DNA from: a virus
Length of the DNA stretch: 33,622 bases
IMG/VR virus record: IMGVR_UViG_3300017971_002399
Span: 1 to 33,622 of that record
Direction: 5' to 3' (one strand)
Position 1 is the first letter of the stretch, and each line of letters begins with the position of its first letter. The notes beneath the pieces were generated by a model. That model made no database searches. It had not been told where the DNA came from and worked only from the letters and a program-made list of their open reading frames with translations. The position numbers and the translations under genes were made by a program. Positions 110 through 30,820 of this stretch are shown one piece after another.

Positions 110-236
110 GGCAGAGCGAAAGGCGCATCTTAAATTACAGGCGAAATATCTGAAGATGCAAAAGGAATTAGAGGCGTTAGGGTTTGCTTTTTCTGTGATG
201 CTCAAAGGGATTCTTGATACGGCGGAAGATGATTAA
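81..236 (+). CDS. Small helical protein, 51 aa, unknown function
   Basis: ATG at 81 follows a very good ribosome site (GGAGGG, 69-74, 6 nt spacing). The product is 51 residues. Its first two thirds are rich in Lys, Glu, Leu, Ala and Gln with a heptad-like look (KYLKMQKELEALG), suggesting an amphipathic helix or short coiled coil. The stop at 234-236 overlaps the start of the primase gene, which suggests translational coupling. It may be a small partner of the primase, but nothing in the sequence proves a function. Confidence 0.6.
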   Translation: METVPLAKYEAERKAHLKLQAKYLKMQKELEALGFAFSVMLKGILDTAEDD

Positions 237-1851
237 TCATATCAAAAAATATCTCGCCGCCGGTTACAGCGTGTTCCCCGTGAAGCACGACAAACGGCCT
301 TACTTCTCATGGGAAGAGTATCAGCATCGGAAGCCGACAAAAGACGAGTTGAATGCCTGGTGGGGAAGCAAAGGGAAATATGTCGGTAGCAATATCGCAA
401 TCGTAACAGGAGAAACCAGCAACCTCACGGTGATTGATATCGACAGCAAGGAAGGCGAGAAAGCAATCCAAGAGTTTATTCCCCCCAAGATTGACACGCC
501 TATCGTAAAAACGCCAAGCGGCGGCTACCATCTTTATTTTCAGCACGAAAGAGGGATTGGAAATCGGACGCGCTTTTTGACTGACTGTGACATACGCAGC
601 GAAGGGGGCTATGTAGTCGCACCGCCGTCCACAAACGGCGGGGCCGGGGCATACGTTTTTGTAAAAGAGAACGCATTGGTTACAGCACGATTACCGGATA
701 CAATGCGCTCTTGTATTTTAAATACTCCTAACTATATTATTAGTACTATAACTGCAAATCCCGTGCCGAACTCTGTGGACACTTGTGGACATAGGGATTT
801 ATCGTTCGACAAAGGCAGCCGGGATGATACCCTTTTCCACGTTGCGAATTGCCTGGTAAAAGGCGGTATGCCTGTACCGGAAATTGAGCAAATTCTTTCA
901 CTTATCTCTTCTAAAGTCTGCAATCCCCCCTTCCCTGAAAAAGAAATACAAATCAAAGTAAAGAGTGCCGTCCAGAGGTCAAATCGCAAGGAAAGAAATC
1001 TGATGGACGAGGTGCGCGAGTTTGTTTTGTCCACAAGTGGACACTTTTTGTCCACAGAAGTCCACAAATGGACACAAGTGTCCACAAGACGCGAAAAAAA
1101 GACAATATCAGAGTGTTTAAGGCGGCTAACGGATGAAGGGTTAATCGAGCGGACGGGTGATCGGAACGGTCAATTCCGATTAATCGACAAGGACGCGAAG
1201 CTGATAAATTACAAAAAGAATTTTACGGATCATGACCTGGATTTGATTTTGCCGTTGGGGATTCATCGTTGGATTTATACTTTTCCGAAAAGCCTGTTTG
1301 TGTTTGCCGGGGCACCGGATAGCGGCAAAACTGCGTTGATGCTGAATGTTGCACGGTTGAATCAAAAGGAAATCCCGACATATTATTTCAGTAGTGAGAT
1401 GGGGGACCAGGAATTAAACAGTCGATTGTCGAAGTTTGATGACATTACGATTGACCATTGGAATTTTACGGCAAAGGAACGGGCAAGCAATTTTGCGGAT
1501 GTCATTGAACCGAATGCGCTGAACATTATAGATTTTTTAGAAATAACAGATAGTTTTTACCGTATCTCAGGGGATTTAACCGCAATATACAATCGTCTCA
1601 ACAAGGGAGTTGCGATTGTGTGTATTCAAAAGGCACCCAAGGCCAGGTTGGGGCGAGGTGCATCGTTTTCTCTTGAAAAGCCTCGGTTGTATTGCACGGT
1701 GGACCGGGGGAAGCTCTCTATTATTAAGGCAAAAAACTGGCGTGATAGTGAGAAAAACCCGAATAATCAGGCGATTAACTTCAAGATTGTTCGGGGTTGT
1801 GAAATTATTCCTGATTCGGGGTGGTATTACGATGAGCCGATTGATCTATGA
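229..1851 (+). CDS. Bifunctional primase-polymerase fused to RecA-like ATPase/helicase
   Basis: This protein should make primers (and possibly extend DNA) and drive unwinding at the phage origin. From ATG 229 it is 540 aa. Residues 1-145 form an archaeo-eukaryotic Prim-Pol domain, with the metal-binding DID at 70-72, SGGYH with His101, and the following DIRSEGGYVVAPPS block at 121-134. A PriCT-like helical region follows, then a winged-helix-like segment. A RecA-fold ATPase has Walker A GAPDSGKT at 361-368. A TTG at 214 has a closer purine run (AAGGGA, 205-210) and would add five residues, so the exact start is uncertain. The gene overlaps its neighbours on both sides. DnaA-box-like repeats are embedded in it (separate entries). 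Such fusions are common replication proteins of phages and plasmids. The class call is firm; actual helicase activity is inferred. Confidence 0.92.
   Translation: MINHIKKYLAAGYSVFPVKHDKRPYFSWEEYQHRKPTKDELNAWWGSKGKYVGSNIAIVTGETSNLTVIDIDSKEGEKAIQEFIPPKIDTPIVKTPSGGYHLYFQHERGIGNRTRFLTDCDIRSEGGYVVAPPSTNGGAGAYVFVKENALVTARLPDTMRSCILNTPNYIISTITANPVPNSVDTCGHRDLSFDKGSRDDTLFHVANCLVKGGMPVPEIEQILSLISSKVCNPPFPEKEIQIKVKSAVQRSNRKERNLMDEVREFVLSTSGHFLSTEVHKWTQVSTRREKKTISECLRRLTDEGLIERTGDRNGQFRLIDKDAKLINYKKNFTDHDLDLILPLGIHRWIYTFPKSLFVFAGAPDSGKTALMLNVARLNQKEIPTYYFSSEMGDQELNSRLSKFDDITIDHWNFTAKERASNFADVIEPNALNIIDFLEITDSFYRISGDLTAIYNRLNKGVAIVCIQKAPKARLGRGASFSLEKPRLYCTVDRGKLSIIKAKNWRDSEKNPNNQAINFKIVRGCEIIPDSGWYYDEPIDL
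774..791 (-). repeat. Two DnaA-box-like nonamers, 10 bp apart
   Basis: TGTGGACA occurs at 774-781 and again at 784-791, exactly one helical turn apart. Read on the minus strand each is TGTCCACA, the core of the nonamer group found again at 1027-1086. The pair lies within the primase coding region. Confidence 0.5.
1027..1086 (+). repeat. Cluster of DnaA-box-like nonamers, possible replication origin
   Basis: TTGTCCACA is at 1027-1035 and 1048-1056, AAGTCCACA at 1058-1066 and GTGTCCACA at 1078-1086. Opposite-strand near copies lie at 1036-1044 and 1067-1075. The TCCACA cores start at 1030, 1051, 1061 and 1081 (steps of 21, 10 and 20 bp), so they fall on one face of the helix. TTGTCCACA is a known DnaA-box variant (for example the favoured form in Streptomyces; the E. 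coli consensus is TTATNCACA). The protein encoded across it is a low-complexity linker between primase and winged-helix parts, which leaves the DNA free to carry such signals. An origin or an initiator-binding autoregulatory site is inferred. Confidence 0.5.
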
Positions 1852-2050
1852 TGATATTGAGGTAAGCACGGAAAAAGCGATTTGTTTTTCGTTTGATAAT
1901 CAAAATGTTTGGTTGCCGAAATCCCAAATTGAACATTTAGATATGCACGGGCATTTTGTTGATATTCCTCAATGGTTGATACTCAGTAAGGGCTTGGAGT
2001 GTTATTGCATGGATGAATATGAGGGGCAAAAAAAATGCGATACCCCATAA
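1832..2050 (+). CDS. Hypothetical protein, 72 aa
   Basis: ATG at 1832 lies 20 nt inside the primase 3' end, preceded by GGGGTGG around 1817-1825. The 72-residue product is acidic with many aromatic residues and three Cys near the end (ECYCMDEYEGQKKC). No domain is recognised. Its stop lies 16 nt inside the RusA gene, so the chain primase - small protein - RusA looks like one translationally coupled unit. Its place suggests a replication or recombination accessory, but that is only positional. Confidence 0.6.
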   Translation: MSRLIYDDIEVSTEKAICFSFDNQNVWLPKSQIEHLDMHGHFVDIPQWLILSKGLECYCMDEYEGQKKCDTP

Positions 2051-2430
2051 CCCCCGTCCCGAAACCCCGTATGACGCAGAGAGATAAATGGCACAAGCGG
2101 GGTTGCGTCGTTCGATACTGGGACTTCAAGGATGAGGTGCGCCGGCTGAACGTCAAATTACCTGCGCACGGGGCCTGGGTCACGTTTTATCTGCCGATGC
2201 CGAAATCATGGTCGAATAAAAAGAGGGATGAAATGTATCTCACGCCGCACAGGCAGAAGCCTGATTTAGATAACCTAATTAAGGCGTTGGGGGATGCTGT
2301 TTACGATGACGATAGCGTGATTTGGGATATTCGAGCGAGTAAATGGTGGGAGTTAAGTGGCGCGATTGATATTTTGGATTTAAGGTGGCAACCGAGAATT
2401 AAGGAAATCACACAGGAGGATTTAATTTGA
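2035..2430 (+). CDS. rusA: RusA-family Holliday junction resolvase
   Basis: A 131-aa endodeoxyribonuclease of the RusA family, which cuts four-way DNA junctions produced during phage replication and recombination. The signature block is visible: PDLDNLIKALGDAVYDDDSV, with Asp77 and Asp79, Lys83 and the Asp91-93 cluster as the metal-binding and catalytic residues. The N-terminal PVPKPRMTQRD strand is also typical. Length is normal for the family (about 115-140 aa). The start ATG sits 16 nt inside the preceding small gene. The call is firm from the motif; the junction-cleaving role comes from the family. Confidence 0.93.
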   Translation: MRYPITPVPKPRMTQRDKWHKRGCVVRYWDFKDEVRRLNVKLPAHGAWVTFYLPMPKSWSNKKRDEMYLTPHRQKPDLDNLIKALGDAVYDDDSVIWDIRASKWWELSGAIDILDLRWQPRIKEITQEDLI

Positions 2431-2810
2431 CTGAAACCAGATCATGTCCACACGCAAAATGGCTCGGTTGTCGGCTACCGGGAAGCGAATGTCCGCTGAA
2501 CGATTGGGTATTTAAAGGCGCTCTTGATTATTATCTGAGTCACCTGCCGGGCCTCGGTGGTCAACCAGACGGGAGTCCAAAATCACATAGCTATGATAAT
2601 CTACGCCTTGAAATAGCTGTGTCCCTTGAACCGTTGGATATGATCGTCGGTTGGGATAAGACGATGTATGATTATCTCAATACGGGCAAGGTGGACATGA
2701 CCAGGGACTTGTGCGTGGCCCTGCGAAATAGTCAGTACCAATGGTGGCTGCGGGCCAGTCCGCCGGGGTATCCGTGGCTTGGACGGGTGGCGGCAATAAA
2801 TCGGAGGTGA
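2427..2810 (+). CDS. Hypothetical protein, 127 aa (TTG start)
   Basis: The likely start is TTG at 2427, overlapping the RusA stop by 4 nt and served by a textbook AGGAGG at 2413-2418. The product is 127 aa. It has an N-terminal Cys cluster (CPHAKWLGC, then C at about 22) that could bind a metal, followed by a Trp-rich mixed helical region. No family is recognised. Its position after RusA and before a metallopeptidase places it in the early or middle DNA-metabolism block. Confidence 0.65.
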   Translation: MTETRSCPHAKWLGCRLPGSECPLNDWVFKGALDYYLSHLPGLGGQPDGSPKSHSYDNLRLEIAVSLEPLDMIVGWDKTMYDYLNTGKVDMTRDLCVALRNSQYQWWLRASPPGYPWLGRVAAINRR

Positions 2811-2817
2811 CGAAAAC

Positions 2818-3135
2818 ATGAAATTACCGAAAATGTTAAAGATAGGCGGGCATGATGTAAAAATAATATTCCCGTATGTATTCAAGGAGCGTGGGGATCT
2901 ATTGGGGCAATATGATCATGATGCTAAGGAAATACGAATAAATGATGCGACCACAGGGGGAGAGAAGGTAGCAGAAAGTGAGTTGATTTGTACGTTTATT
3001 CATGAGTTATTCCATGCGATTGATAAAACATCAGGGCATAGAATTTTTGACGACAATGATCGGGCGCTTGAAGGCATTGCCCAGGGTTTTTATCAGGTAT
3101 TGGTAGATAATAATTATTTGGAGGTGACAAGGTGA
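2818..3135 (+). CDS. Small HExxH zinc metallopeptidase-like protein
   Basis: A 105-aa protein with the zinc-protease helix FIHELFHAID (HELFH at 62-66) and a downstream Glu85 in ALEGIAQGF that could be the third ligand. The arrangement resembles ImmA/IrrE-like and other short phage or prophage metallopeptidases. Substrates in this family include repressors or host regulators, but none is identifiable here. ATG 2818 follows a GGAGGTGACG-type ribosome site. The 3' end overlaps the next gene by 4 nt. Family level is reasonably sure; function is open. Confidence 0.75.
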   Translation: MKLPKMLKIGGHDVKIIFPYVFKERGDLLGQYDHDAKEIRINDATTGGEKVAESELICTFIHELFHAIDKTSGHRIFDDNDRALEGIAQGFYQVLVDNNYLEVTR

Positions 3136-3596
3136 AACCAGATAAAAAAGTGTATTGTAGCGATTGTAAGCACCATGTCCATAACGGAAGTATGCACGAA
3201 TGTCATAATGAGTGGTTTGTAAAGCGCGGAAACGCGCAGGAAATAGGAAGCGCACCAATAAGCCTTGTTGTAGTTTTTGGAAACTGTCTCGAACTTAATA
3301 AAAACAATGATTGTAGAGGGTTTGAGTCAATACAGCATATTGGAGGTGACAACATGAAATTTTGCAAGGATTGTAAGCGGTTGACGTACAAATATCCGCA
3401 TAATTGGTATTTTCACGCTGATGAAAGTCCAAAACATACCTCATATTTACATGAATGTAGGGTAACGGTACAAGGGTTTGAGAAATATGATTTGGTTACG
3501 GGTGATGTGATTTATTCAAAGGCTAAAGATATGCGGGAAGTCGGGGGTTTATGCGGCCCCGAGGGTAAACTTTGGGAGCCGAAAAATAAAACTTGA
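3132..3596 (+). CDS. Tandem zinc-ribbon protein with internal start site
   Basis: GTG start at 3132 after GGAGG; 154 aa. Two similar Cys/His modules are visible: module 1 has Cys9, Cys12, His22, Cys24, Cys52 and Cys61; module 2 has Cys78, Cys81, His107, Cys109 and Cys142. Each opens with a CxDCK-type knuckle and continues to an HEC. Module 2 begins at an in-frame ATG (3354) with its own ribosome site. The 13-nt string ttggaggtgacaa is present before both starts (3118-3130 and 3340-3352). A full-length and a short form are therefore both possible. It looks like duplication of a short zinc-binding gene followed by fusion. Function unknown. Confidence 0.7.
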   Translation: MKPDKKVYCSDCKHHVHNGSMHECHNEWFVKRGNAQEIGSAPISLVVVFGNCLELNKNNDCRGFESIQHIGGDNMKFCKDCKRLTYKYPHNWYFHADESPKHTSYLHECRVTVQGFEKYDLVTGDVIYSKAKDMREVGGLCGPEGKLWEPKNKT

Positions 3597-3620
3597 CATT
3601 TATCTCAAAATGTGCATAAT
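3593..3620 (+). promoter_or_regulatory. Sigma70-type promoter
   Basis: A perfect -35 TTGACA (3593-3598) is followed after 16 bp by CATAAT (3615-3620), so transcription should start near 3627. The -35 box overlaps the last codons of the zinc-ribbon gene. It is the best promoter match noticed in the window and reads into the terminator at 3636-3671. Confidence 0.65.
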
Positions 3621-3635
3621 CAGATCTTGAATGAG

Positions 3636-3671
3636 ACCGCTGCGCCCAAAATTTGGGTTGGCGGTTTTTTT
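3636..3671 (+). terminator. Intrinsic terminator just downstream of a promoter
   Basis: ACCGC (3636-3640) pairs with GCGGT (3661-3665). An inner CCCAA/TTGGG hairpin lies at 3645-3657, and a run of seven T ends at 3671. It closes the early operon. Because a strong promoter starts only about 10 nt before it, it would also stop that transcript after about 45 nt unless antitermination occurs. Confidence 0.7.
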
Positions 3672-3788
3672 ATGCTCAAAATCAGGCCATGAAACCTATC
3701 AGCCAAAGGCCGGTGGTCGCTCCCGTAAGCAGACGATACTCTGACTATCGTTTGGCCGGCCATTATCAACGCTCGTCAGAGGAGCAAC
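3672..3788 (+). other. Structured leader before the helix-turn-helix gene
   Basis: No convincing gene. GGCCGG at 3708-3713 can pair with CCGGCC at 3756-3761, enclosing a second hairpin ACGATA (3733-3738) / TATCGT (3746-3751). The string CATGAAACCT occurs at 3688-3697 and again, exactly 100 nt later, at the start of the next gene. This could be a folded 5' leader; no known riboswitch or RNA class is recognised. Confidence 0.3.
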
Positions 3789-4124
3789 ATGAAACCTGCA
3801 GAGCCATTAAATGGCTACTTTGTCGTATCTCATTGGGTCTTAGAAGATCCTGACTGGAACAAATTAACACCATCAGCCAAAATACTCTATTTCATGCTTT
3901 GTAAGCATCGGAATAGATATTCCGGAAAACGTCGCTATTTTACACGCACCACCACACAACTATCAAAAGACTTGAACATGAGCCGCGCAACCATCACACG
4001 CGCTAAACAAGAGCTCCTGGACGCTAAATTCATCATAACCACCAGCGCACCATACAAATCAACTAAATGGGAATTGGTCGAACAAGAACACCTAAAATCA
4101 CTCTTCCCTAGTGCTCACCCATGA
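3789..4124 (+). CDS. Helix-turn-helix protein, replication-initiator/replisome-organizer-like
   Basis: 111 aa, ATG 3789 after GAGGAG. The N-terminal part (HWVLEDPDWNKLTPSAKIL) and the winged-helix segment with TTTQLSKDLNMSRATITRAK match the helix-turn-helix module at the start of many phage replisome organizers and DnaD- or RepO-type proteins. The usual C-terminal part of such proteins is missing. The protein ends at 4124, inside the first of three 24-bp-spaced repeats that it may bind. Likely role: DNA binding at an origin or operator. The HTH fold is fairly sure; replication versus transcription control is not. Confidence 0.65.
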   Translation: MKPAEPLNGYFVVSHWVLEDPDWNKLTPSAKILYFMLCKHRNRYSGKRRYFTRTTTQLSKDLNMSRATITRAKQELLDAKFIITTSAPYKSTKWELVEQEHLKSLFPSAHP

Positions 4125-4177
4125 GCCTTATGTAGTGCTCACCAGTGATACATACACAGTGCTCACCCATGAGCACC
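4109..4177 (+). repeat. Three iteron-like repeats, 24-bp spacing
   Basis: AGTGCTCACC is repeated with GTGCTC starting at 4111, 4135 and 4159, exactly 24 bp apart. The first and third copies continue as CATGAGC. The third is a full inverted repeat, GTGCTCA-ccca-TGAGCAC (4159-4176). The first copy contains the stop of the HTH gene. Equal spacing and a dyad next to a DNA-binding gene suggest iterons or an operator. Confidence 0.55.
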
Positions 4178-4208
4178 TTATTAAGAAGGATATTAAAAAG
4201 AAATCACC

Positions 4209-4691
4209 ATGCCTAAAAAAATAAAAATGGAGGATCGCAAAAAACGTCCAAGAATCCCAAAAGCACTCTTAAAGGCTGAAAAAAAGGCGTGCGAAGTGCT
4301 CGTAAAACAACCGGACGCAACCGATTCCGATATCAATAGAGAATTGCTTAAAAGTGGTGTCAGTAAGGATACAGTCTACGTGTGGAGACGTCGTAAGAAA
4401 TCACAATTGTTTGATTTTACACTAAATCAGCTCCGAGATTATTACTCGGAACTCATGGTCCGTGAGTGTGCTGGCACTGCTATCAAAAACACCAAAAAAG
4501 CTATAAAGGACAGAGACTTAGCTAAGGATAATCCTAGTGTATTCTTACAATGGAACAAGCTGGTTATGGATAAAACAGTGGCAACACAGGAACCACAGGT
4601 TATCCAACCTCATATCAACATCGGTCAGGTCCAGGCATTCATACAACAACAGATCACTGGGGAATCCCTCAAAATAGACGGTGATAAATGA
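4209..4691 (+). CDS. Possible small terminase subunit / HTH protein
   Basis: 160 aa with a very basic N-terminus. A helix-turn-helix-like segment follows (TDSDINRELLKSGVSKDTVY, then WRRRKK), then a long helical middle and a C-terminal tail (INIGQVQAFIQQQI) that could oligomerise. This plan (HTH, oligomerisation helices, C-terminal tail) and its place 1 kb upstream of the large terminase fit a small terminase, which recognises phage DNA for packaging. There is no clean family signature and the ribosome site is weak, so a transcription factor remains possible. Confidence 0.45.
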   Translation: MPKKIKMEDRKKRPRIPKALLKAEKKACEVLVKQPDATDSDINRELLKSGVSKDTVYVWRRRKKSQLFDFTLNQLRDYYSELMVRECAGTAIKNTKKAIKDRDLAKDNPSVFLQWNKLVMDKTVATQEPQVIQPHINIGQVQAFIQQQITGESLKIDGDK

Positions 4692-4926
4692 GGATATCGC
4701 AAGGGTTATATTCTATACGTTTTAGTGTTTGGTAAGTGGTTGATATTACATGGGATAATCAAAAAGTTTACATAATGTAAGTTATAGGACATTGGGACGC
4801 TAACGTATTGAAATTATTAATAAAGTCCCAAGGGTGGGGGGACTGGTAAGACGGGGTGGGGTCGTTTACGTTTATTATCCCTCTCACACTTTTCTGAGAA
4901 AAAACAAACCAGAGATTAGGTAGCCA
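4692..4926. other. Non-coding gap with possible promoter and operator
   Basis: No gene is supported here. An extended -10 element TGGGATAAT lies at 4751-4759. Just downstream, where transcription would start, is a 13-bp palindrome TTACATAATGTAA (4768-4780). A 7-bp inverted repeat TTGGGAC (4792-4798) / GTCCCAA (4825-4831) follows. The layout suggests a regulated promoter for the packaging and structural genes downstream, but the -35 match is poor (TTGGTA at 4729-4734, 19-bp spacing). Confidence 0.35.
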
Positions 4927-5133
4927 ATGACGACAAAACGTATTTGTAAACTATGTGGTGCCTTTTTATCGTCATATAATAAATATGATGTGTGTTGGTG
5001 TCATAAGGAGCACCCTGACAAAAAACATCTTGGTGAAAGAGACTGGACACCGCCGAAAGGAGCAGGACATGATACTCCTATGTTAAATATAACTATAATG
5101 AATGAGTATGGCCCCAGTGGTTTTCATTACTGA
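4927..5133 (+). CDS. Small zinc-ribbon protein, 68 aa
   Basis: ATG 4927; 68 aa. A knuckle CKLC (Cys7, Cys10) is followed by CWC with Cys23 and Cys25 and nearby His residues, a plausible single zinc site. The rest is short and unstructured-looking. No family is named. It sits at the start of a run of very small genes leading to the terminase. Such small zinc proteins are common in phage genomes and often bind nucleic acid or host proteins; that is background, not evidence. Confidence 0.55.
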   Translation: MTTKRICKLCGAFLSSYNKYDVCWCHKEHPDKKHLGERDWTPPKGAGHDTPMLNITIMNEYGPSGFHY

Positions 5134-5144
5134 GGATTTTCAAA

Positions 5145-5252
5145 ATGGAATTATTTCAAATAATATCAGCGATAGTCTTTGGTGTAATACTTATTGGGTT
5201 GTTTGGTTATCTTATTGTTATGGCTTTAAATGATTTAAGTAAGCGAAGGTAA
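5145..5252 (+). CDS. Single-pass membrane microprotein, 35 aa
   Basis: ATG 5145 with GAGG about 9 nt upstream. The 35-residue product has one clear hydrophobic stretch (IISAIVFGVILIGLFGYLIV) and a basic cytoplasmic-type tail ending LSKRR. The topology suggests an inner-membrane peptide. Possible roles include a lysis accessory or host-membrane interaction; nothing specific can be read. Confidence 0.5.
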   Translation: MELFQIISAIVFGVILIGLFGYLIVMALNDLSKRR

Positions 5253-5258
5253 CGTGTT

Positions 5259-5552
5259 ATGGCGATTCACACGAGTGGGAATCCGTTGGTATTTGATGGT
5301 GCGGGGACGAAGACGGGATTTTTATTAATCCGAGAGATACAGTGGGTGGATGATGCGGCCGATGTTGCGGACGGGGATGATATGGTGTTAACGATGAACG
5401 GCGTTACATTGACCTTTAAGGTGCAGGTAAACGGGGCGGATTTTGGCAGTTGTTTAGTTTGGCGAGCGGGGCCGTTTCATCCGCCGGTGAAGGTTGAGAA
5501 TTTTACGGTGACGACGTTGTCTCATGGTGCGATTCATGTTTGGTTGTTGTAG
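5259..5552 (+). CDS. Small beta-rich protein, 97 aa, possible virion accessory
   Basis: ATG 5259; 97 aa, rich in Val, Asp, Gly and Thr with alternating hydrophobic residues, suggesting a beta-sandwich. It lacks charged helices and Cys clusters, unlike the upstream regulatory genes, and resembles small structural or decoration proteins in style. It precedes the terminase by two genes. No family is recognised with confidence. Confidence 0.6.
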   Translation: MAIHTSGNPLVFDGAGTKTGFLLIREIQWVDDAADVADGDDMVLTMNGVTLTFKVQVNGADFGSCLVWRAGPFHPPVKVENFTVTTLSHGAIHVWLL

Positions 5553-5563
5553 GGGGTATTGAT

Positions 5564-5716
5564 ATGCCGGTGAGGAAGGCGAAGGGTGGTAAGTGGCGGA
5601 TAGGCAAAGGGAAGGCGATATACACGACGAAGGCTGCTGCTGAGAGGGCGTATAAGGCGTACTTAGCTAAGGCATACGGGCCGAGAAAGAAAGCGAAATA
5701 TAAGATAAAGTATTGA
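5564..5716 (+). CDS. Very basic 50-aa protein
   Basis: ATG 5564, stop 5714-5716. The product is 50 aa with about one third Lys/Arg (for example MPVRKAKGGKWRIGKGKA), plus a helix rich in Ala and Tyr. Similar tiny basic proteins with a KxGGKWxxGK-type start are common just upstream of phage terminase or portal genes. A nucleic-acid or virion-internal role is possible but unproven. Its stop comes 5 nt before the proposed terminase ATG. Confidence 0.55.
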   Translation: MPVRKAKGGKWRIGKGKAIYTTKAAAERAYKAYLAKAYGPRKKAKYKIKY

Positions 5717-5721
5717 GGGGT

Positions 5722-7200
5722 ATGGATAATCTTGATGGTATTGAAGTCCCGAAGGACTGGGTGCCGATAATCAGTTGGCCCCAGTTTTTTTATGCTCAAC
5801 AGAAGGAGTATATTAATTCGGAGAAGTGGCAGACCTGGTTTATTGGGGGCAATGGTACGGGCAAGACGCACATGGTGTTTTGGAGTGTTGCGGCGTTGGT
5901 ATTGGGGATTCATCCGAAGCAGATTGCGCCGCCGCCGTTAAGGGTGTGTGTAATTGAGCCGGACTATGACAAGGTATTGGATGTTGCGTTGGAGAAGTTG
6001 CAGTCGCCCCAGGTGGTGATGCCGCACAACATTGAGCTAGGGGCGATGTTACCGCCTTCGATGGTCACGAAAGGGTACAACAAGGACCACAGGAGTATTG
6101 ATTTAAGGAATGGCAGTCAGATCATATTCGTCACGAACGAGCAGGGCTGGAAGGCGATGCGGGGGAAGCAGTTTGATGCGCTGGCCGTTGATGAGGAATG
6201 TGATCAGCGGGTGTTTGATGAGAATTTGAGAGGTTTAAGAAACGCGAAGGGTGGAGGCCGGGTGATTGCCGGGCTTACGCCGCCGTATGAAGAGGGCCAG
6301 GGCCCGACGTGGACGAAGGACCGGATTGTTGACAATGCGTTGGGGGACACGGACATTCATGTTGTGAATGCGTGTATGGCGGACAATCCGGCGATTACCT
6401 CCGAGTTTATCGAGCGGTTCAGCAGGGGTAAGACGCAAAAGCAGATAGATGTGCAGGTGTATGGCCGTTATCCTACTTGGGGTGATTTGGTTCACCCGGA
6501 TTTTCAGGATTCGTTGTGGAGCTATGAGAAGTGTCACGGGCATTTATTGCGGAACGACACCCCGATGCCGGAGGCGTATGAGGTTGACTGGGTAATGGCT
6601 TTTGACTGGCACCCCAGCAAGCCGTGCGCGGCGTTGTGGGGATGGGTGAGCCGGGATGGTAATATCACGATATTCGACGAGTTGGACAAGGAAGTTGCGC
6701 GGGACAAGGATATTAGTGAGCTGACCGACATTTTTAAGAATGTTGAGGGAGACCCGTTTTATAAGCGACGGTTTTCCAGGTGGCAGGACCCTAGTGCCAA
6801 GCAATTATATAAGGCGCAGGAGCGGGGTTTTAATGCGTGGGACGAGTTCAGGCGGTGCGGGATTGTCACATCGGCGGCGAGGAACCGGGACCCGTTGGTG
6901 GGAATCAGTATCGTCAACGATTACTTTAAGGGTAACGGGCGGGACACGCCTCGCCTATTTATTTATGAACGGTGCAAGTTCCTTAGACAGTACCTGCGGA
7001 ACCATTATTGGAAGCGGGGAGAGGATGGGGTTGGAAAGCCGGACCCGAAGTGGAGTGATTATCCCGTGTGTTTGAAATATATTTTACAGGAAGTCGGTTT
7101 GAAGCGGCAGAAGAACAGAAGGAACAATAAATGGCCGACGGTGAGTTATGGTAGGCCGGAGGTACGCCGTCCGACGATTGACTTGGGGAGATATTTTTAA
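5722..7200 (+). CDS. terL: Large terminase subunit (TerL)
   Basis: The DNA-packaging motor and nuclease of the phage. From ATG 5722 it is 492 aa. Walker A GGNGTGKT is at 42-49 and Walker B ALAVDEE at 153-159. The C-terminal nuclease half starts at about 290 with AFDWHPSKP (Asp295) and ends with a conserved packaging-nuclease-like helix around DYPVCLKYILQEVG. Length and domain order are normal for TerL. The GAGGGG run at 5715-5720 is only 1 nt from this ATG, so the start is not ideal. A TTG at 5713 has no ribosome site. It is separated from the portal gene by a sugar cassette rather than being adjacent as usual. Confidence 0.95.
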   Translation: MDNLDGIEVPKDWVPIISWPQFFYAQQKEYINSEKWQTWFIGGNGTGKTHMVFWSVAALVLGIHPKQIAPPPLRVCVIEPDYDKVLDVALEKLQSPQVVMPHNIELGAMLPPSMVTKGYNKDHRSIDLRNGSQIIFVTNEQGWKAMRGKQFDALAVDEECDQRVFDENLRGLRNAKGGGRVIAGLTPPYEEGQGPTWTKDRIVDNALGDTDIHVVNACMADNPAITSEFIERFSRGKTQKQIDVQVYGRYPTWGDLVHPDFQDSLWSYEKCHGHLLRNDTPMPEAYEVDWVMAFDWHPSKPCAALWGWVSRDGNITIFDELDKEVARDKDISELTDIFKNVEGDPFYKRRFSRWQDPSAKQLYKAQERGFNAWDEFRRCGIVTSAARNRDPLVGISIVNDYFKGNGRDTPRLFIYERCKFLRQYLRNHYWKRGEDGVGKPDPKWSDYPVCLKYILQEVGLKRQKNRRNNKWPTVSYGRPEVRRPTIDLGRYF

Positions 7201-10730: not shown

Positions 10731-11068
10731 TGGAAAGAACTTACAAAACCTGGGGTGAAAAATGGAACGTATTTCAAAATGATTTATGTGAAGTGTCAAT
10801 TCTTTATCTAAAACCGCATCAAAGATGCAGTTGGCACAAACACCAAGCAAAATTCAACCAGTTTTTTGTGATAGAGGGGGAAATTTACATAAAAACAGAG
10901 TGGGGAAAATCATATATCGAAAAAGGCCAGGTTTTTACGACACGTCCGCTTGAGTATCATGAGTTCCAGACAGCGGACAAACCGGCGGTTATTCAGGAAA
11001 TCATGTATGTGAAGTACGATCCTGAAGACATAGACAGACAAACACTAGGCGGGCCGATAAATGAATAA
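10730..11068 (+). CDS. Cupin protein, mannose-6-phosphate isomerase type II C-domain-like
   Basis: 112 aa, start overlapping the previous stop by 1 nt (TAATG). The N-terminal WGEKWNVF, the metal pair His36 and His38 in SWHKHQAKFNQFFVIEG, and His77 form a one-domain cupin barrel. It resembles the C-terminal domain of type II mannose-6-phosphate isomerases and sugar-binding cupins. In this cassette it may isomerise, epimerise or sense a sugar. Catalytic type is uncertain since the pyrophosphorylase domain is absent. It overlaps the portal gene by 8 nt, tying the sugar genes to the head operon. Confidence 0.75.
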   Translation: MERTYKTWGEKWNVFQNDLCEVSILYLKPHQRCSWHKHQAKFNQFFVIEGEIYIKTEWGKSYIEKGQVFTTRPLEYHEFQTADKPAVIQEIMYVKYDPEDIDRQTLGGPINE

Positions 11069-13013
11069 GCGGGATGAAGAGATATACCGGGAATTGATGC
11101 TTCGATACAAAGAGCAGTGGGACAAAAACAGTTACAATCGAGGCAATTATGACGAAGATTTGGAATATTATCGTGGGTATAGAAATACCGCTGATTATCC
11201 GTTGACTTACAATGAGAATTTCAACCGGATATTGCCGATTATCTATACGATTTTATCCCGATTTATGGACCAGATTTTTCAAGGGGGGAACGTAATCAGT
11301 GTAAAACCGCGTCACAGAAAGGACCTGGAACGGGTGAAGGCCGTCGAAGGGGTGCTCAATTTCCAGTTTGAAACTTTGAACGACATTGACCAGCAGGGGG
11401 CGGGATACCTCACGCTGATGAAGTGGTTTTTTAATACCATCACGTTTGGCAAAGGGATCGTAAAAGCCTACTGGAAAAAGGAAGAACGTATCAGCCCCAG
11501 ACGGATCGCGCTTCCGACCCCAAGCTTTGACCGGATGGGGAACTTCCAGGGCATGGACGTAATGGATTTTATTTCCCAGGAAATGCAGACGATTTATGAC
11601 GGTCCTTATATCGAGGTTTTGCACAACAAACAGTTTGTGCCGCACCCGGAATACAAGAATATTCAGCAGATGCCGTATGTGTTTATCGTCTACAAACGGT
11701 CGTTGGACGAAGTAAAGCGCATGGCGGACAAGGGCATATACAAAAATATCAGTGAAGTCGGGGTGTCCCCCGAGGGGGGTGCCGGGTATCAGTCGAGTGA
11801 TTCAAGAGAGCAATTCGTAAAAAGCCTGGAAATCGAGGGGGCCTTGCAGACCGAGGACGGGGACACGAAAAGGAAAGCGCCGGAGATAGATGTCCTTGAA
11901 TGTTACGGCAAAATGATTTTGGAAGATGCGCCGTATGAGGTGGGGTCCGGTCTTAAAATCAAGGGGAAAGAAGAAGAGATTATCGCGCATATCGGGAATT
12001 ATCGAACGCTGTTATCCCTTCAGAAAAACACCTATGGAATGCGGCCTTTGTTCGATATGGGTTGCTATTTACAGCCGGAATTGTTTTGGGATATCGGCAT
12101 GGTACGGCTCACAAAGGGAATCCAGGAGCAAATCAATAACCTGGCGAATTTGAGAATTGCCAATGTTATGATGCAGATAAACCCGATGATTAAAATATTG
12201 AGCAATTCGGATGTATCCCCGGAAGCTCTTACCTGGAAACCATTCGGGATTGTGCCGGTGGACTCGATGGACGAGGTGGAACCGCTTGTTATCCCAGATT
12301 ATCATTCAAACCTGTTTTTAGAGCAGGAAACATTTTACAAGGATACCATCCAAGATTTGATGGGAATGTATGATTACAACATGGGCCAAACCCCTCAAAG
12401 GCAGGAACGGGTGGGGGTGGTTTACGGTATTCAGGCGATGGGCGAGGCACGGGCCAAGCTGCTTTTGATGAGTATGGACTATCTGGGCTTGAGGCCGCTT
12501 TTAAAGTATCTGATGATTTTAAACACGTTCCATCTGCCGAGCGGGTTTGAATATCGCATCGGGTTCGGGGATGAACAACAGTTCGGTCAGATATTCGGGG
12601 ACGATATTCACCCGGACTTTGATTTTGCGGCTCGCTACACCTCTATGGAACCGGCCTTGGGAAAACAGGCGCGGGCACAGCAGCTTGTGCAAATGGCGAA
12701 CTTGTGGAGTCAAAATCCGTGGGTGAACCAGTATCAATACACGAAAACCATGATGGAACTTTTGGATATCCGGGAAGCCGATTATCTATTAAAAACGCCT
12801 CAACAGTTTGGCCAGGAAATGCAGCAACAGGCAATGGCTCAAATGCAAGCGGAACATCAGAAGCAGCAGTTTGAAACGGAAGGCAAAATTATGACGAGTC
12901 AGAAAGACTTCGTTGAGGACATGACACTTAACGAGCAGGAGTTTCGACATAATTTGGCACTTGAGGCAATTAAAGCAGACGCGGCAAAAGAGAAAGCGAC
13001 AACGGCTAAATGA
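11061..13013 (+). CDS. Portal protein
   Basis: 650 aa, a length common for podovirus-type portals. The portal is the ring at one capsid vertex through which DNA enters and leaves. The N-terminal portion (NRGNYDEDLEYYRGYR, NFNRILPIIYTILSRFMDQI) and the central region (QEQINNLANLRIANVMMQIN, later GMYDYNMGQTPQRQERVGVV) resemble portals of SU10/P22-like podophages. The last 80 residues are Gln/Glu/Ala-rich and likely coiled coil. Its position before scaffold and capsid genes supports the call. Confidence 0.87.
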   Translation: MNKRDEEIYRELMLRYKEQWDKNSYNRGNYDEDLEYYRGYRNTADYPLTYNENFNRILPIIYTILSRFMDQIFQGGNVISVKPRHRKDLERVKAVEGVLNFQFETLNDIDQQGAGYLTLMKWFFNTITFGKGIVKAYWKKEERISPRRIALPTPSFDRMGNFQGMDVMDFISQEMQTIYDGPYIEVLHNKQFVPHPEYKNIQQMPYVFIVYKRSLDEVKRMADKGIYKNISEVGVSPEGGAGYQSSDSREQFVKSLEIEGALQTEDGDTKRKAPEIDVLECYGKMILEDAPYEVGSGLKIKGKEEEIIAHIGNYRTLLSLQKNTYGMRPLFDMGCYLQPELFWDIGMVRLTKGIQEQINNLANLRIANVMMQINPMIKILSNSDVSPEALTWKPFGIVPVDSMDEVEPLVIPDYHSNLFLEQETFYKDTIQDLMGMYDYNMGQTPQRQERVGVVYGIQAMGEARAKLLLMSMDYLGLRPLLKYLMILNTFHLPSGFEYRIGFGDEQQFGQIFGDDIHPDFDFAARYTSMEPALGKQARAQQLVQMANLWSQNPWVNQYQYTKTMMELLDIREADYLLKTPQQFGQEMQQQAMAQMQAEHQKQQFETEGKIMTSQKDFVEDMTLNEQEFRHNLALEAIKADAAKEKATTAK

Positions 13014-14209: not shown

Positions 14210-15481
14210 ATGGCAACGACAGCAAGTGCATGGTTGATGACGGGCGCTCGGGAGTATGAGGGGCGTGGTTTATACAGCCGTGATATTGTAAGCGATGTAC
14301 CGTTCGGTGTGGTGGACGGAACGCAACGGCGGGACGTATCAGAAGTGCTGGACCTTTTGGCGCTTGCCGATACGCCTTTTATCAATCGAATCGGGTGGGG
14401 GCCGGAATCCGGCGGGACGAATATCGAGTGGATTTCGGAAGACCTCGGACCTGGCAAACTAACTCAGGCGACCAGTACGGAATGTGCTCAGGCGAGTTTC
14501 GTGGTGACGAGTACGGATGGTATTACGGCTTCCCAGAGTTTGTATCAGGTCGTTGAGGGGAGTGTACTTTATAAGTATTGCTCGGAACAGGCCGCCAATA
14601 GTTATGGCGGACATGCTTTGGCGGTGGTAACGTCCACCCCGGCTGCCGGTGGAACGGGGGTCAGTGTTTTTATTTCCCTTATTTCGGCAGGACATGGGGC
14701 GAGCATTATGAGTCTTACCGGCTCTATTGTGTCCGGTGAGGTGTGGTATGTTCTCGGGGCGGTGGCGAATGAAGGCTCTGTGCCGAATACGCCGAACCCC
14801 AGGCAACGTCAGGTGCTTAGTAATGAGTTCATGATTTTGCGAAAGGATGTGCAGATTACCGGCACCATGAAGTCAACCGATATGTATGTGATCGGCAGGG
14901 AGGACAAGCATCAGATTTTGATGCGCCTGAAGGAACTTCAAAGAGAACGCGAGCGGATGGCCTTGTATTCCGCAAGGATTACCAAGACCAGTGCGCTTGC
15001 CGGGTTGATGAACGGTGTTCTGGGATTCCTTGGTACGCAGGGAGGGTCCAATGTGGATACCTCCACGACCAGCCTCACGGAATCGGCGGTCAATACGATG
15101 GTCAAGAAATTGTGGGAGCATGGTTCAAGAAATCTCACGATTTTCGGGCACATTGATCAGACTGCCAATTTTACCAAGTGGGATAAAAACCGGATTCGTA
15201 TGCGGGTGAATGACCGTACCGGCGGCGGATATGTCACGTCGTATCTCACAGAGGCGGGAATTGAGGTAGATTTGATTCCGATGGGTAATGTGCCGACGAA
15301 CCTCATGTTTGTTGTGAATACCGACAAGATAAAGCTGCGGGCCAAGCGAGGCCGCAAGGCGATTATGGAGAAGCTCGGTAAAATGGGTGACTTCGATGAT
15401 TGGCAAATTCTGTCGGAGTTCTCGATGGAAATGAAGGGGTACAACCTCTTCCAGCATGGGATGTTCACTCGACTGACCTAA
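14210..15481 (+). CDS. Major capsid protein (SU10/DUF5309-like)
   Basis: 423 aa, ATG 14210 after GGAGGA. An N-terminal arm with LLALADTPFINRIGWG leads to a core with VLSNEFMILRKDVQITGTMK, then the charged helix IGREDKHQILMRLKELQRER, GLMNGVLGFL, and the C-terminal HK97-type strands (GIEVDLIPMGNVPTNLMFVV; KIKLRAKRGRKAIMEKLG). This order matches the DUF5309/SU10-like major head proteins, in which a conserved Glu/Arg-rich helix precedes a Gly-Leu turn. It would form the icosahedral shell. A strong terminator follows at once, as expected for the most highly expressed gene. Confidence 0.87.
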   Translation: MATTASAWLMTGAREYEGRGLYSRDIVSDVPFGVVDGTQRRDVSEVLDLLALADTPFINRIGWGPESGGTNIEWISEDLGPGKLTQATSTECAQASFVVTSTDGITASQSLYQVVEGSVLYKYCSEQAANSYGGHALAVVTSTPAAGGTGVSVFISLISAGHGASIMSLTGSIVSGEVWYVLGAVANEGSVPNTPNPRQRQVLSNEFMILRKDVQITGTMKSTDMYVIGREDKHQILMRLKELQRERERMALYSARITKTSALAGLMNGVLGFLGTQGGSNVDTSTTSLTESAVNTMVKKLWEHGSRNLTIFGHIDQTANFTKWDKNRIRMRVNDRTGGGYVTSYLTEAGIEVDLIPMGNVPTNLMFVVNTDKIKLRAKRGRKAIMEKLGKMGDFDDWQILSEFSMEMKGYNLFQHGMFTRLT

Positions 15482-28557: not shown

Positions 28558-28884
28558 ATGAAAAAGTTATTGATGATTGTTTTGGCGCTTATGTTTCTAC
28601 CCACCTTGGCATGTGCCGACTGGTCCGTGACGGCGACCTGGACCAGGAGCATCGGTCCTAATTTGGATTTTGAGGAATGTCAACTCGATGGTGTCACAAA
28701 ATGCACGGTGCAAGAGACTGATCCGACAACCTGCACGTTTACGGTTACGGATCTCATAGGCCAGGAGGTGAAGATTGTTAGTTACAACGTCCAAGGCGCG
28801 TCTGTTGAGTATGTTATTGGTACGCTGCTTGATGTTCCTGCTCCTGCTAGCGGCGGTAGTCTTACTGTCGTTTACGTTCCTTAG
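28558..28884 (+). CDS. Exported protein with signal peptide, 108 aa
   Basis: ATG 28558 with GGAAGGAG at 28541-28548. MKKLLMIVLALMFLPTLACA is a signal peptide very like that of the gene at 27930, and both mature parts start ADxSVT, suggesting duplication of a secreted module. The mature 88 residues form a beta-sandwich with three Cys (ECQ, KCT, TCT). Its 3' part carries the AGGAGGTG ribosome site of the next gene. It may be partner or chaperone to the Ser-rich protein. Confidence 0.68.
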   Translation: MKKLLMIVLALMFLPTLACADWSVTATWTRSIGPNLDFEECQLDGVTKCTVQETDPTTCTFTVTDLIGQEVKIVSYNVQGASVEYVIGTLLDVPAPASGGSLTVVYVP

Positions 28885-30820
28885 AGCGGATCAGGTTGCG
28901 TTTCAATGGGATCCGAACACAGAAGAGGACCTTGCCGGATACCGCCTTCATTGGGGGGCGGAGTCCGGGGTCTATACCTCGACGCTGGATGTCGGCAATG
29001 TTACGACTTACACGGCGGAGATACCGGATCAAAGCTACATTGCGCTTACGGCATACGATACAGAGGGATTTGAGAGTGGTTACAGTAATGAGCTTTATTA
29101 TGCGATTCAAACACCGGATGAGATATACCCGGCAACAGACGGACAGTTACATTGGGAGTGGACCGAGGTAAATATGTCATACCCGCAATACTCAGAAGCA
29201 TGGGATTTTACTGGCAATGTAGCCTCTGATGCGAATTGGGATGTAGGAGACGATGGGTCTGCTGGAACGCCATATGCCGACAGCTCCAATATGTTTATCG
29301 CGAGTACTGTAAATTACAATGGCTATAATCTCGTTTATCAGACTGCTTGTGATTCGGTCAACCAATGTGTGTTAGTTCGTCTCAACTATTTGGAGGGCAA
29401 CGCCGGCTCTTTCGGCGCGATGTTCCGGCAGGCAAATGCCGATGGAAGTGGTGCGTGCTATTGGGTCAATTTACGGTGGGATGGATCTTCCAACTGGCAG
29501 TTCAATGTTGAGAGATATAATGGAGTTTCATGGCAAGAGACTGTCGGAACTAGGATAAATGTTACCGCACCTAACGCAAATGATTATTTCGGATTCTCTG
29601 TTGAGGGCACGGGGAATGACACGGTTTTTAAATATTGGGACTTCGGGAACAGCGACCCCGGCGATTTTGAGAATTGGGGGGACCCGACTCAAACACAGAC
29701 AGGCAACCCGTCTACTGCGGTTGATACGGGCAGCTATGTCGGGCAGAGTATTTATTATCTCACATCCGCTGGTTCCGATCACAAGTACGACTTATGGCGC
29801 GGCGGGGACCAGGAGGCGGCAGGCTCCCCCAGTGCTTCAATTTCACCGAGTCTAAGTGCATCTGTCTCTCCATCGGCTTCTGAAAGTGCGTCAGTTTCAC
29901 CTTCCGTTTCCCCAAGTGCTTCTGTATCCCCATCGGTCAGCCCCAGTGCTTCCGAATCACCAAGCATCAGTCCCTCGGCAAGTGAGTCTCCATCTGTTTC
30001 ACCCTCGGCCAGTGTTTCACCAAGCGTAAGTCCTTCAGCATCAGTATCACCATCCGCTTCCGAATCTCCTTCGGTGTCACCCTCTGCCTCGGTCAGTCCA
30101 TCGGTTAGTCCGTCTGCGTCCGAATCGGCGTCACCCTCGGCCTCAGTTTCTCCATCTATATCACCGAGCGCGAGTGAGTCACCCTCAGTCTCCCCGTCGG
30201 CCTCAGAATCACCTTCAGTATCACCATCGGCCTCTGAAAGCCCAAGCGTTAGCCCTAGTGCATCAGAAAGCCCATCGGTTTCTCCATCAGCGTCTATTTC
30301 GCCAAGTTCTTCCGAGTCTCCCTCAGTCAGTCCATCAGCTTCGGAAAGTCCAAGCGTTTCCCCATCCGCGAGTGAGTCACCGAGTGTAAGTCCATCGGCT
30401 TCAGTATCGCCTAGTCCAAGTCCAGGGTCAGAATCGGCTTCCATAAGTCCGTCAATATCGCCAAGTGCATCTGAAAGCCCAAGCGTAAGCCCATCGGCAA
30501 GCGAATCTCCGTCTGAATCGCCATCTATATCACCATCGGCGAGTGAATCTCCGTCGGTCAGTCCTTCAGCTTCTGTGTCGCCTTCGGTCAGTCCGAGTGC
30601 TTCCGAATCACCCAGTATCAGTCCATCGGCATCTGAATCACCGTCCGTAAGCCCCTCTGCTTCAGAGTCGCCCTCAGAGTCGCCTTCTGTTTCACCGTCA
30701 GCATCTTTGTCGCCCTCAGCTTCTTTAAGCCCTTCAGCATCAGTCAGTCCATCGGCAGGGTTCATATATCAACCAAGAGGATTATTAATGGGCGTATATC
30801 GAGTTAGGAGAATTTCATAA
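28775..30820 (+). CDS. Secreted/anchored Fn3 protein with 311-residue Ser/Pro mucin-like repeat
   Basis: 681 aa from TTG 28775, chosen because AGGAGGTG (28763-28770) sits 4 nt upstream; ATG 28811 has no comparable site. A hydrophobic signal or anchor is at 18-36 (end LRA/DQ). An Fn3 domain occupies about 40-115 (WDPNTEEDLAGYRLHWG to FESGYSNEL). A lectin- or LamG-like beta domain spans about 130-345. The tract of residues 351-661 is almost only Ser, Pro, Ala, Glu and Val in repeating SPSASESPSVSPSA-type units. The tail is short and basic (YQPRGLLMGVYRVRRIS). All six Ser codons are used, so the peptide pattern is kept by selection. It overlaps the glycosyltransferase gene by 1 nt and is a strong candidate for dense O-glycosylation. 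Confidence 0.78.
   Translation: MLVTTSKARLLSMLLVRCLMFLLLLAAVVLLSFTFLRADQVAFQWDPNTEEDLAGYRLHWGAESGVYTSTLDVGNVTTYTAEIPDQSYIALTAYDTEGFESGYSNELYYAIQTPDEIYPATDGQLHWEWTEVNMSYPQYSEAWDFTGNVASDANWDVGDDGSAGTPYADSSNMFIASTVNYNGYNLVYQTACDSVNQCVLVRLNYLEGNAGSFGAMFRQANADGSGACYWVNLRWDGSSNWQFNVERYNGVSWQETVGTRINVTAPNANDYFGFSVEGTGNDTVFKYWDFGNSDPGDFENWGDPTQTQTGNPSTAVDTGSYVGQSIYYLTSAGSDHKYDLWRGGDQEAAGSPSASISPSLSASVSPSASESASVSPSVSPSASVSPSVSPSASESPSISPSASESPSVSPSASVSPSVSPSASVSPSASESPSVSPSASVSPSVSPSASESASPSASVSPSISPSASESPSVSPSASESPSVSPSASESPSVSPSASESPSVSPSASISPSSSESPSVSPSASESPSVSPSASESPSVSPSASVSPSPSPGSESASISPSISPSASESPSVSPSASESPSESPSISPSASESPSVSPSASVSPSVSPSASESPSISPSASESPSVSPSASESPSESPSVSPSASLSPSASLSPSASVSPSAGFIYQPRGLLMGVYRVRRIS
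29825..30757 (+). repeat. Ser/Pro low-complexity coding repeat
   Basis: 933 nt encode 311 residues of degenerate repeats with core SPSASESPSVSPSAS. Synonymous codons vary widely between units, so it is not a fresh slippage array. Mucin-like composition fits an extended, glycosylated stalk. Confidence 0.8.

Follow-up and report, generated by a model that had tools for sequence, protein, structure and literature searches.

The DNA analysed here (the window) is a complete virus record of 33,622 bases that encodes structural genes of a tailed phage. Its features are collected in Table 1. One gene encodes a primase-helicase, here called the initiator, whose product exceeds the Pfam cut-offs for Prim-Pol (PF09250, 97.2 bits against 22.8) and PriCT_1 (PF08708, 30 bits against 21.1) and thus is a Prim-Pol/PriCT_1 primase protein. 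The AlphaFold2 model of the initiator has a mean pLDDT of 88.9. The winged-helix domain, modelled separately, reaches a pLDDT of 89 and is predicted to consist of helices at residues 258-268, 275-282 and 287-302 and a wing at 306-308/315-318.

Table 1. Positions of genes, protein domains and candidate origin elements in the window
Feature	Position	Strand	Remarks
Initiator (primase-helicase) gene	229..1851	+	540-residue product; Pfam hits, AlphaFold2 model
Prim-Pol domain	residues 7-157 of initiator		Pfam, above curated cut-off
PriCT_1 domain	residues 194-250 of initiator		Pfam, above curated cut-off
Winged helix	residues ~258-320 of initiator		predicted, between PriCT and ATPase
DnaB/RecA-like ATPase	residues ~337-530 of initiator		C-terminal; Pfam DnaB_C above curated cut-off
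AT-rich tract, candidate DNA-unwinding element	710..759	.	78% A+T; ends 14 bp before first site
Putative iteron GTCCACA, cluster 1	774..780	-	
Putative iteron GTCCACA, cluster 1	784..790	-	
Putative iteron GTCCACA, cluster 2	1029..1035	+	lattice offset 0
Near copy, TGTCCAC on minus strand	1037..1043	-	sequence; repeat D1; AGTGGACA context
Putative iteron GTCCACA, cluster 2	1050..1056	+	offset +21
Putative iteron GTCCACA, cluster 2	1060..1066	+	offset +31
Near copy, TGTCCAT on minus strand	1068..1074	-	ATGGACA; near +41 lattice position filled in some relatives
Putative iteron GTCCACA, cluster 2	1080..1086	+	offset +51
Predicted recognition-helix codons (residues 287-302), putative reader	1087..1134	+	model and co-variation; S294 = 1108-1110, E295 = 1111-1113
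Portal gene	11061-13013		window
Major head protein gene	14210-15481		window

Inside the initiator gene, the six TCCACA cores described in the first-pass annotation are all present between 774 and 1086, starting at 774 and 784 on the minus strand and at 1030, 1051, 1061 and 1081 on the plus strand, as are the two near copies and the two exact occurrences of TTGTCCACA (at 1027 and 1048). The spacings also agree with that description, being 10 bp in the first pair and 21, 10 and 20 bp in the second group, i.e. the GTCCACA words stand one to three helical turns apart. The sites had been assigned to a low-complexity linker; this is correct for the first pair, which lies in a disordered segment (residues 169-190, pLDDT < 50), but not for the second group, which encodes the first half of the folded winged helix. 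As controls, the codons were shuffled while protein sequence and codon usage were preserved: in 774-1086, none of 20,000 shuffles reached six copies of TCCACA or of GTCCACA (means of 0.43 and 0.30, respectively), so that the excess implied by the earlier reading is borne out. No other 313-bp stretch of the window holds five copies of any one 7-mer, and TCCACA is not enriched across the window as a whole (23 found; 19 expected). A tract similar to the AT-rich one in the window lies beside cluster 1 in most of 16 relatives, with a combined p of 7e-7 if the loci were independent; as they are not fully so, this value overstates the significance, and we consider the AT-rich signal to be present but of modest strength. 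In many relatives a TATATAAGGGG-like stretch of DNA (encoding LYKG or LYRG) directly precedes cluster 1, at 710-773 in the window; it may be part of an unwinding element or of a promoter. Short tandem repeats of a different kind (TCAGAATCACC-type, 12 and 30 bp) are found at 30179-30684 within an ORF at 28775-30820, in the sole kilobase of the window whose GC skew is negative.

No relatives of the initiator came up when viral and genome contigs were searched with the single protein; alignment-based searches yielded 94 further loci (90 distinct genes). The nearest named homologues belong to Methanosarcina virus MetMV and to Caudoviricetes vir555, the latter assigned to Methanomicrobiales; their annotation does not go beyond hypothetical protein or DNA primase. 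Both primase genes have the architecture seen in the window (35% and 29% identity, respectively) and each contains an in-gene array, whose word is GACCACA in MetMV and (T)TCAACA in vir555, as compared to GTCCACA in the window. Copies of GACCACA occupy the same two places of the MetMV gene as in the window, i.e. ahead of PriCT and where the winged helix begins; in vir555, copies of AGTTGAA lie between PriCT and the winged helix. The MetMV record MK170447.1 contains the replication module twice (754-6536 and 59883-65665; L100 and L101); since its start is repeated from ~59130 onwards, the true genome probably measures ~59 kb and the duplication would be an assembly overlap.

Taking a 7-mer array score of at least 7 as the threshold, we found in-gene arrays in 32 of the 90 distinct homologues. 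None of these arrays was matched by any of 100 synonymous shuffles, and most other long ORFs from these loci stayed below the threshold (7 of 193 reached it, at least some of them being low-complexity coding repeats). Arrays beyond codon expectation, a check named in the first-pass annotation, are observed in these 32 genes, but the words are other than in the window. More than half of the 90 genes lack a clear in-gene array, and some have none nearby; such relatives may carry degenerate words or use another site. Altogether at least 26 different words occur (GTCTACA, GTCGTCA, GACCACA, GTCAACA, CCTTACA, GACTTCA, CGTAACA and others), all but a few of which fit NNNN(A/T/G)CA, mostly NNNNACA. In full-length relatives the words are found at homologous codons, with cluster 2 offsets of 0, 21, 31, 41-42 and 51 bp, not all of which are occupied in each relative. 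The in-gene spacings follow a phase of ~10.5 bp (R = 0.80, n = 233). Four more distant or split Prim-Pol phages were also checked: no array was seen in Enterococcus IME-EFm5 or Micrococcus Kurnik. In Rhizobium phage 16-3 (L193:5114-5474), ~15 copies of CGTGACA lie directly downstream of p101, which consists of Prim-Pol and a RecA-like ATPase with a winged-helix-like C-terminal end, and in Streptococcus phage A25 (L192:5286-5482) six copies of CGGTAAC lie directly downstream of the primase gene; both are candidate origins.

At homologous positions the words are translated into repeated LST/VST peptides, and the DNA repeat might therefore be a by-product of a repeated Ser-Thr protein sequence, or else have arisen by chance. 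We regard this as hardly credible, given that no codon shuffle of the window reached the observed count. In addition, steps of 10 bp shift the reading frame, so that the residues encoded by one and the same word vary from site to site, and another word brings other amino acids; hence it is not the protein that is conserved. Indeed, several relatives (L014, L021, L047, L068, L070, L093 and others) carry the array outside the gene in non-coding DNA, with the same 10.5-bp phasing (R = 0.75, p 3e-9, n = 35), which identifies it as a DNA element rather than a protein repeat. It is the lattice that is kept at the DNA level while the word written on it is replaced.

The same replacement of words bears on the proposal in the first-pass annotation that the sites are bound by host DnaA. 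In its favour, both copies of TTGTCCACA differ from the DnaA box TTATCCACA by one mismatch, but across the window one-mismatch boxes show no enrichment (13 found; 9.4 expected) and a perfect TTATCCACA does not occur. The homologous positions in relatives hold unrelated words, e.g. GTCTACA, GTCGTCA, GACCACA and CCTTACA, none of which is a DnaA box, and a DnaA-dependent origin (boxes TTATNCACA, conserved in relatives) was rejected as a class for the array. Furthermore, the named relatives nearest to the window infect methanogenic archaea, which are not known to possess DnaA. Taken together with the fact that the word tracks a helix of the phage's own protein, as described below, these findings make recognition by DnaA highly improbable, and we have abandoned this part of the earlier reading.

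To relate words to protein residues, words were registered by the coding strand, partly by hand; a strand-blind automatic registration was dropped, as near-palindromic words came out reversed. With ATPase similarity removed, residue 294 ranks first of 416 protein columns for word similarity (0.65; the next is residue 291 with 0.43), and it is still first when the similarity of the remaining winged helix is removed as well. By mutual information, residue 294 is the top column for each of bases 1, 2 and 3 of the word, and residue 295 for base 4. Both residues belong to the predicted recognition helix, and neither has its codon within the words. Among 55 loci, residue 294 pairs with base 2 as R294-G (13/13), S294-T (24/27) and Y294-C (4/4), and residue 295 with base 4 as K295-G (10/10), I295-T (7/7) and E295-C (3/3). 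Contacts of Arg or Lys with G, of hydrophobic residues with the methyl group of T and of acidic residues with C are chemically plausible in protein-DNA recognition. A third contact, of residue 296 with base 5, is suggested by the single case of L042 and L088 (G vs A at base 5; K vs A at residue 296). Phylogenetic non-independence of the pairings was controlled by partial correlation only; in the ATPase tree, supported pairs were too few for a strict test based on independent pairs.

The word-residue rule was fixed before 43 new distinct relatives were fetched, 19 of which had arrays or lattices. It gave the correct base 2 in 13 of 16 cases (4.5 expected) and the correct base 4 in all 14 (6.3 expected), with some predictions permitting two or three bases; neither result was reached in any of 20,000 permutations. 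Cases in which the rule fails for base 2 are L103, L139 and L126. In this comparison the words of L115, L117, L121 and L161 were set by eye and L124 was omitted. When only automatic words are used and L124 is counted, the rule is correct in 9/13 cases for base 2 and in 10/10 for base 4 (joint p 6e-5). L093 has two blocks at ~3778-4215, with 15 copies of GTCGTCAG upstream of a winged-helix/ATPase gene; next to them, what appears to begin is a primase gene of the CHC2 type (DnaG-like) and not one for a Prim-Pol. The recognition helix of L093 keeps S/K at 294/295, as the word predicts.

Natural exchanges can also be seen. Judged by the ATPase, the window and L021 form a sister pair (68% identity, starred branch); they differ in base 4 (C vs G) alongside residue 295 (E vs K), as well as in the position of the array, which is inside the gene in the window and upstream of it in L021. 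For L008 and L036 the exchange is that of a whole cassette: their DNA is 91% identical up to gene position 506 and 94% identical from position 963, and between 507 and 962 (~450 bp) there is no detectable match. Both arrays fall in this segment, as do PriCT and the winged helix including its recognition helix, and the words are GACCACA and GTCTACA, respectively. The gene of L036 (4974-7634) also has an intein-like insertion of ~335 residues placed precisely within the Walker A loop of the initiator ATPase, with the junctions ..NAGK|GHPYSTPI...VTHN|TAFLL..; the residue with which it begins looks atypical of inteins.

What do these arrays do? We consider it likely that the sites are iterons of a replication origin that lies inside the initiator gene and is bound by the winged helix encoded there. 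The locus has several near-identical short sites within an initiator gene, helical phasing and, as a moderate signal, an adjacent A+T-rich region. An initiator with primase, ATPase and sequence-reading domain, combined with a co-varying phased array and an AT-rich tract, has the anatomy of an iteron origin. The first-pass annotation had also suggested an embedded origin bound by the primase; this reading is supported by the phased array and by the co-variation of its word with the recognition helix of the encoded protein, binding and origin activity being predicted from these sequence patterns. Cumulative GC skew, which had been named as a further check, gives no signal of an origin: it is nearly monotonic in the window, and in MetMV and vir555 its minimum follows the gene-strand switch. 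Because skew follows the gene strand, we dropped it as evidence. From the array and its reader we infer direct binding, strand opening and priming in the following order: the winged helix would bind the GTCCACA words, upon which the AT-rich tract at 710-759 would melt; the ATPase ring would then load and the Prim-Pol domain would prime. As the words stand one to three helical turns apart, several copies of the protein could line up along the DNA. Moreover, since the words partly encode the winged helix thought to read them, site and reader are physically linked and could be exchanged jointly, in the form of a ~450-bp cassette.

Co-variation and phasing should look the same if the array, instead of being a replication start, were an operator through which the initiator, by its winged helix, regulates how the replication operon is transcribed, or a locus for copy number or incompatibility. 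An array upstream of the gene, as in several relatives, would be in an operator's place. However, in most full-length relatives it is found ~550-870 bp into the coding region, where an operator would be unusual; it is also adjoined by the AT-rich tract, and its reader is fused to primase and helicase domains. We thus regard an operator as unlikely. Very unlikely, in our view, is a centromere-like partition site on which the winged helix would form a filament: the generic winged-helix fold weakly matches centromere-binding proteins of plasmids (pNOB8, AspA; Foldseek E 0.04), yet partition systems do not have their reader joined to Prim-Pol and a DnaB-like ATPase, as is the case here.

Beyond the in-gene iteron origin of the window, we are inclined to see in these loci a widespread family of phage initiators with an exchangeable specificity cassette, in which the words also code for the winged helix that reads them. 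On this somewhat bolder proposal, at least 26 words share one helical lattice, each would be predictable from two or three residues of the recognition helix (294 for base 2, 295 for base 4 and possibly 296 for base 5), and lineages could switch origin identity in a single step. Narrow phrase searches of open-licence papers returned no description of arrays in this initiator family, and an earlier description may exist. Initiator and origin must change together, and how replication survives such a change is poorly understood. The loci described here supply dozens of natural initiator-array pairs on one scaffold of conserved geometry, together with a simple candidate code for recognition and one instance of a cassette being exchanged, so that this question can be put to a direct test with small proteins and oligonucleotides. 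If the proposal is true, origin positions and mutual compatibility of uncultured viruses could be read from sequence.

Several known replicons resemble the window in part. In lambda, the origin lies within gene O, and O binds its iterons beside an A+T-rich region (PMC5043065, PMC7466680); the window would likewise have its origin inside the initiator gene, with iterons for that initiator and an A+T-rich neighbour. Lambda O is an unrelated protein, and Pfam and PHROGs searches of the window initiator gave Prim-Pol, PriCT_1 and DnaB_C and no lambda O model. The window combines Prim-Pol, winged helix and DnaB-like ATPase in one chain, so that loader, helicase and primase would not be recruited from the host as in lambda, and its words are 7 bp long and mostly direct, whereas the lambda iterons are 19-bp inverted repeats that bind O dimers. 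Plasmid pRN1 ORF904 and similar phage replicons fuse Prim-Pol to a helicase and a winged helix (PMC4234260), but there the helicase is of the SF3 type, the winged helix is C-terminal and the origin is a stem-loop that lacks iterons; with its C-terminal DnaB_C and its winged helix in the middle, the window protein is not of this type. SaPI Rep and SCCmec Cch2 are self-encoded initiator helicases that recognise short iterons beside their own gene (PMC7581432), as predicted for the window; they differ in having an origin downstream of the gene, a C-terminal DNA-binding domain and non-coding iterons. The DNA-binding domain of PLE RepA and its origin co-vary and are swapped as a module (PMC8263062), just as reader domain and sites appear to co-vary and exchange together here. 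The PLE origin is intergenic with ~30-bp iterons, and a recognition rule from word to residue is not known to have been described for it. We file the array of the window as a putative variant of the iteron-type origin, outside the lambda O family and distinct from DnaA origins. It is set apart from the lambda, SaPI/SCC and PLE systems in that its words code for the domain predicted to read them, that one lattice is kept over at least 26 words and that a short rule appears to predict the word.
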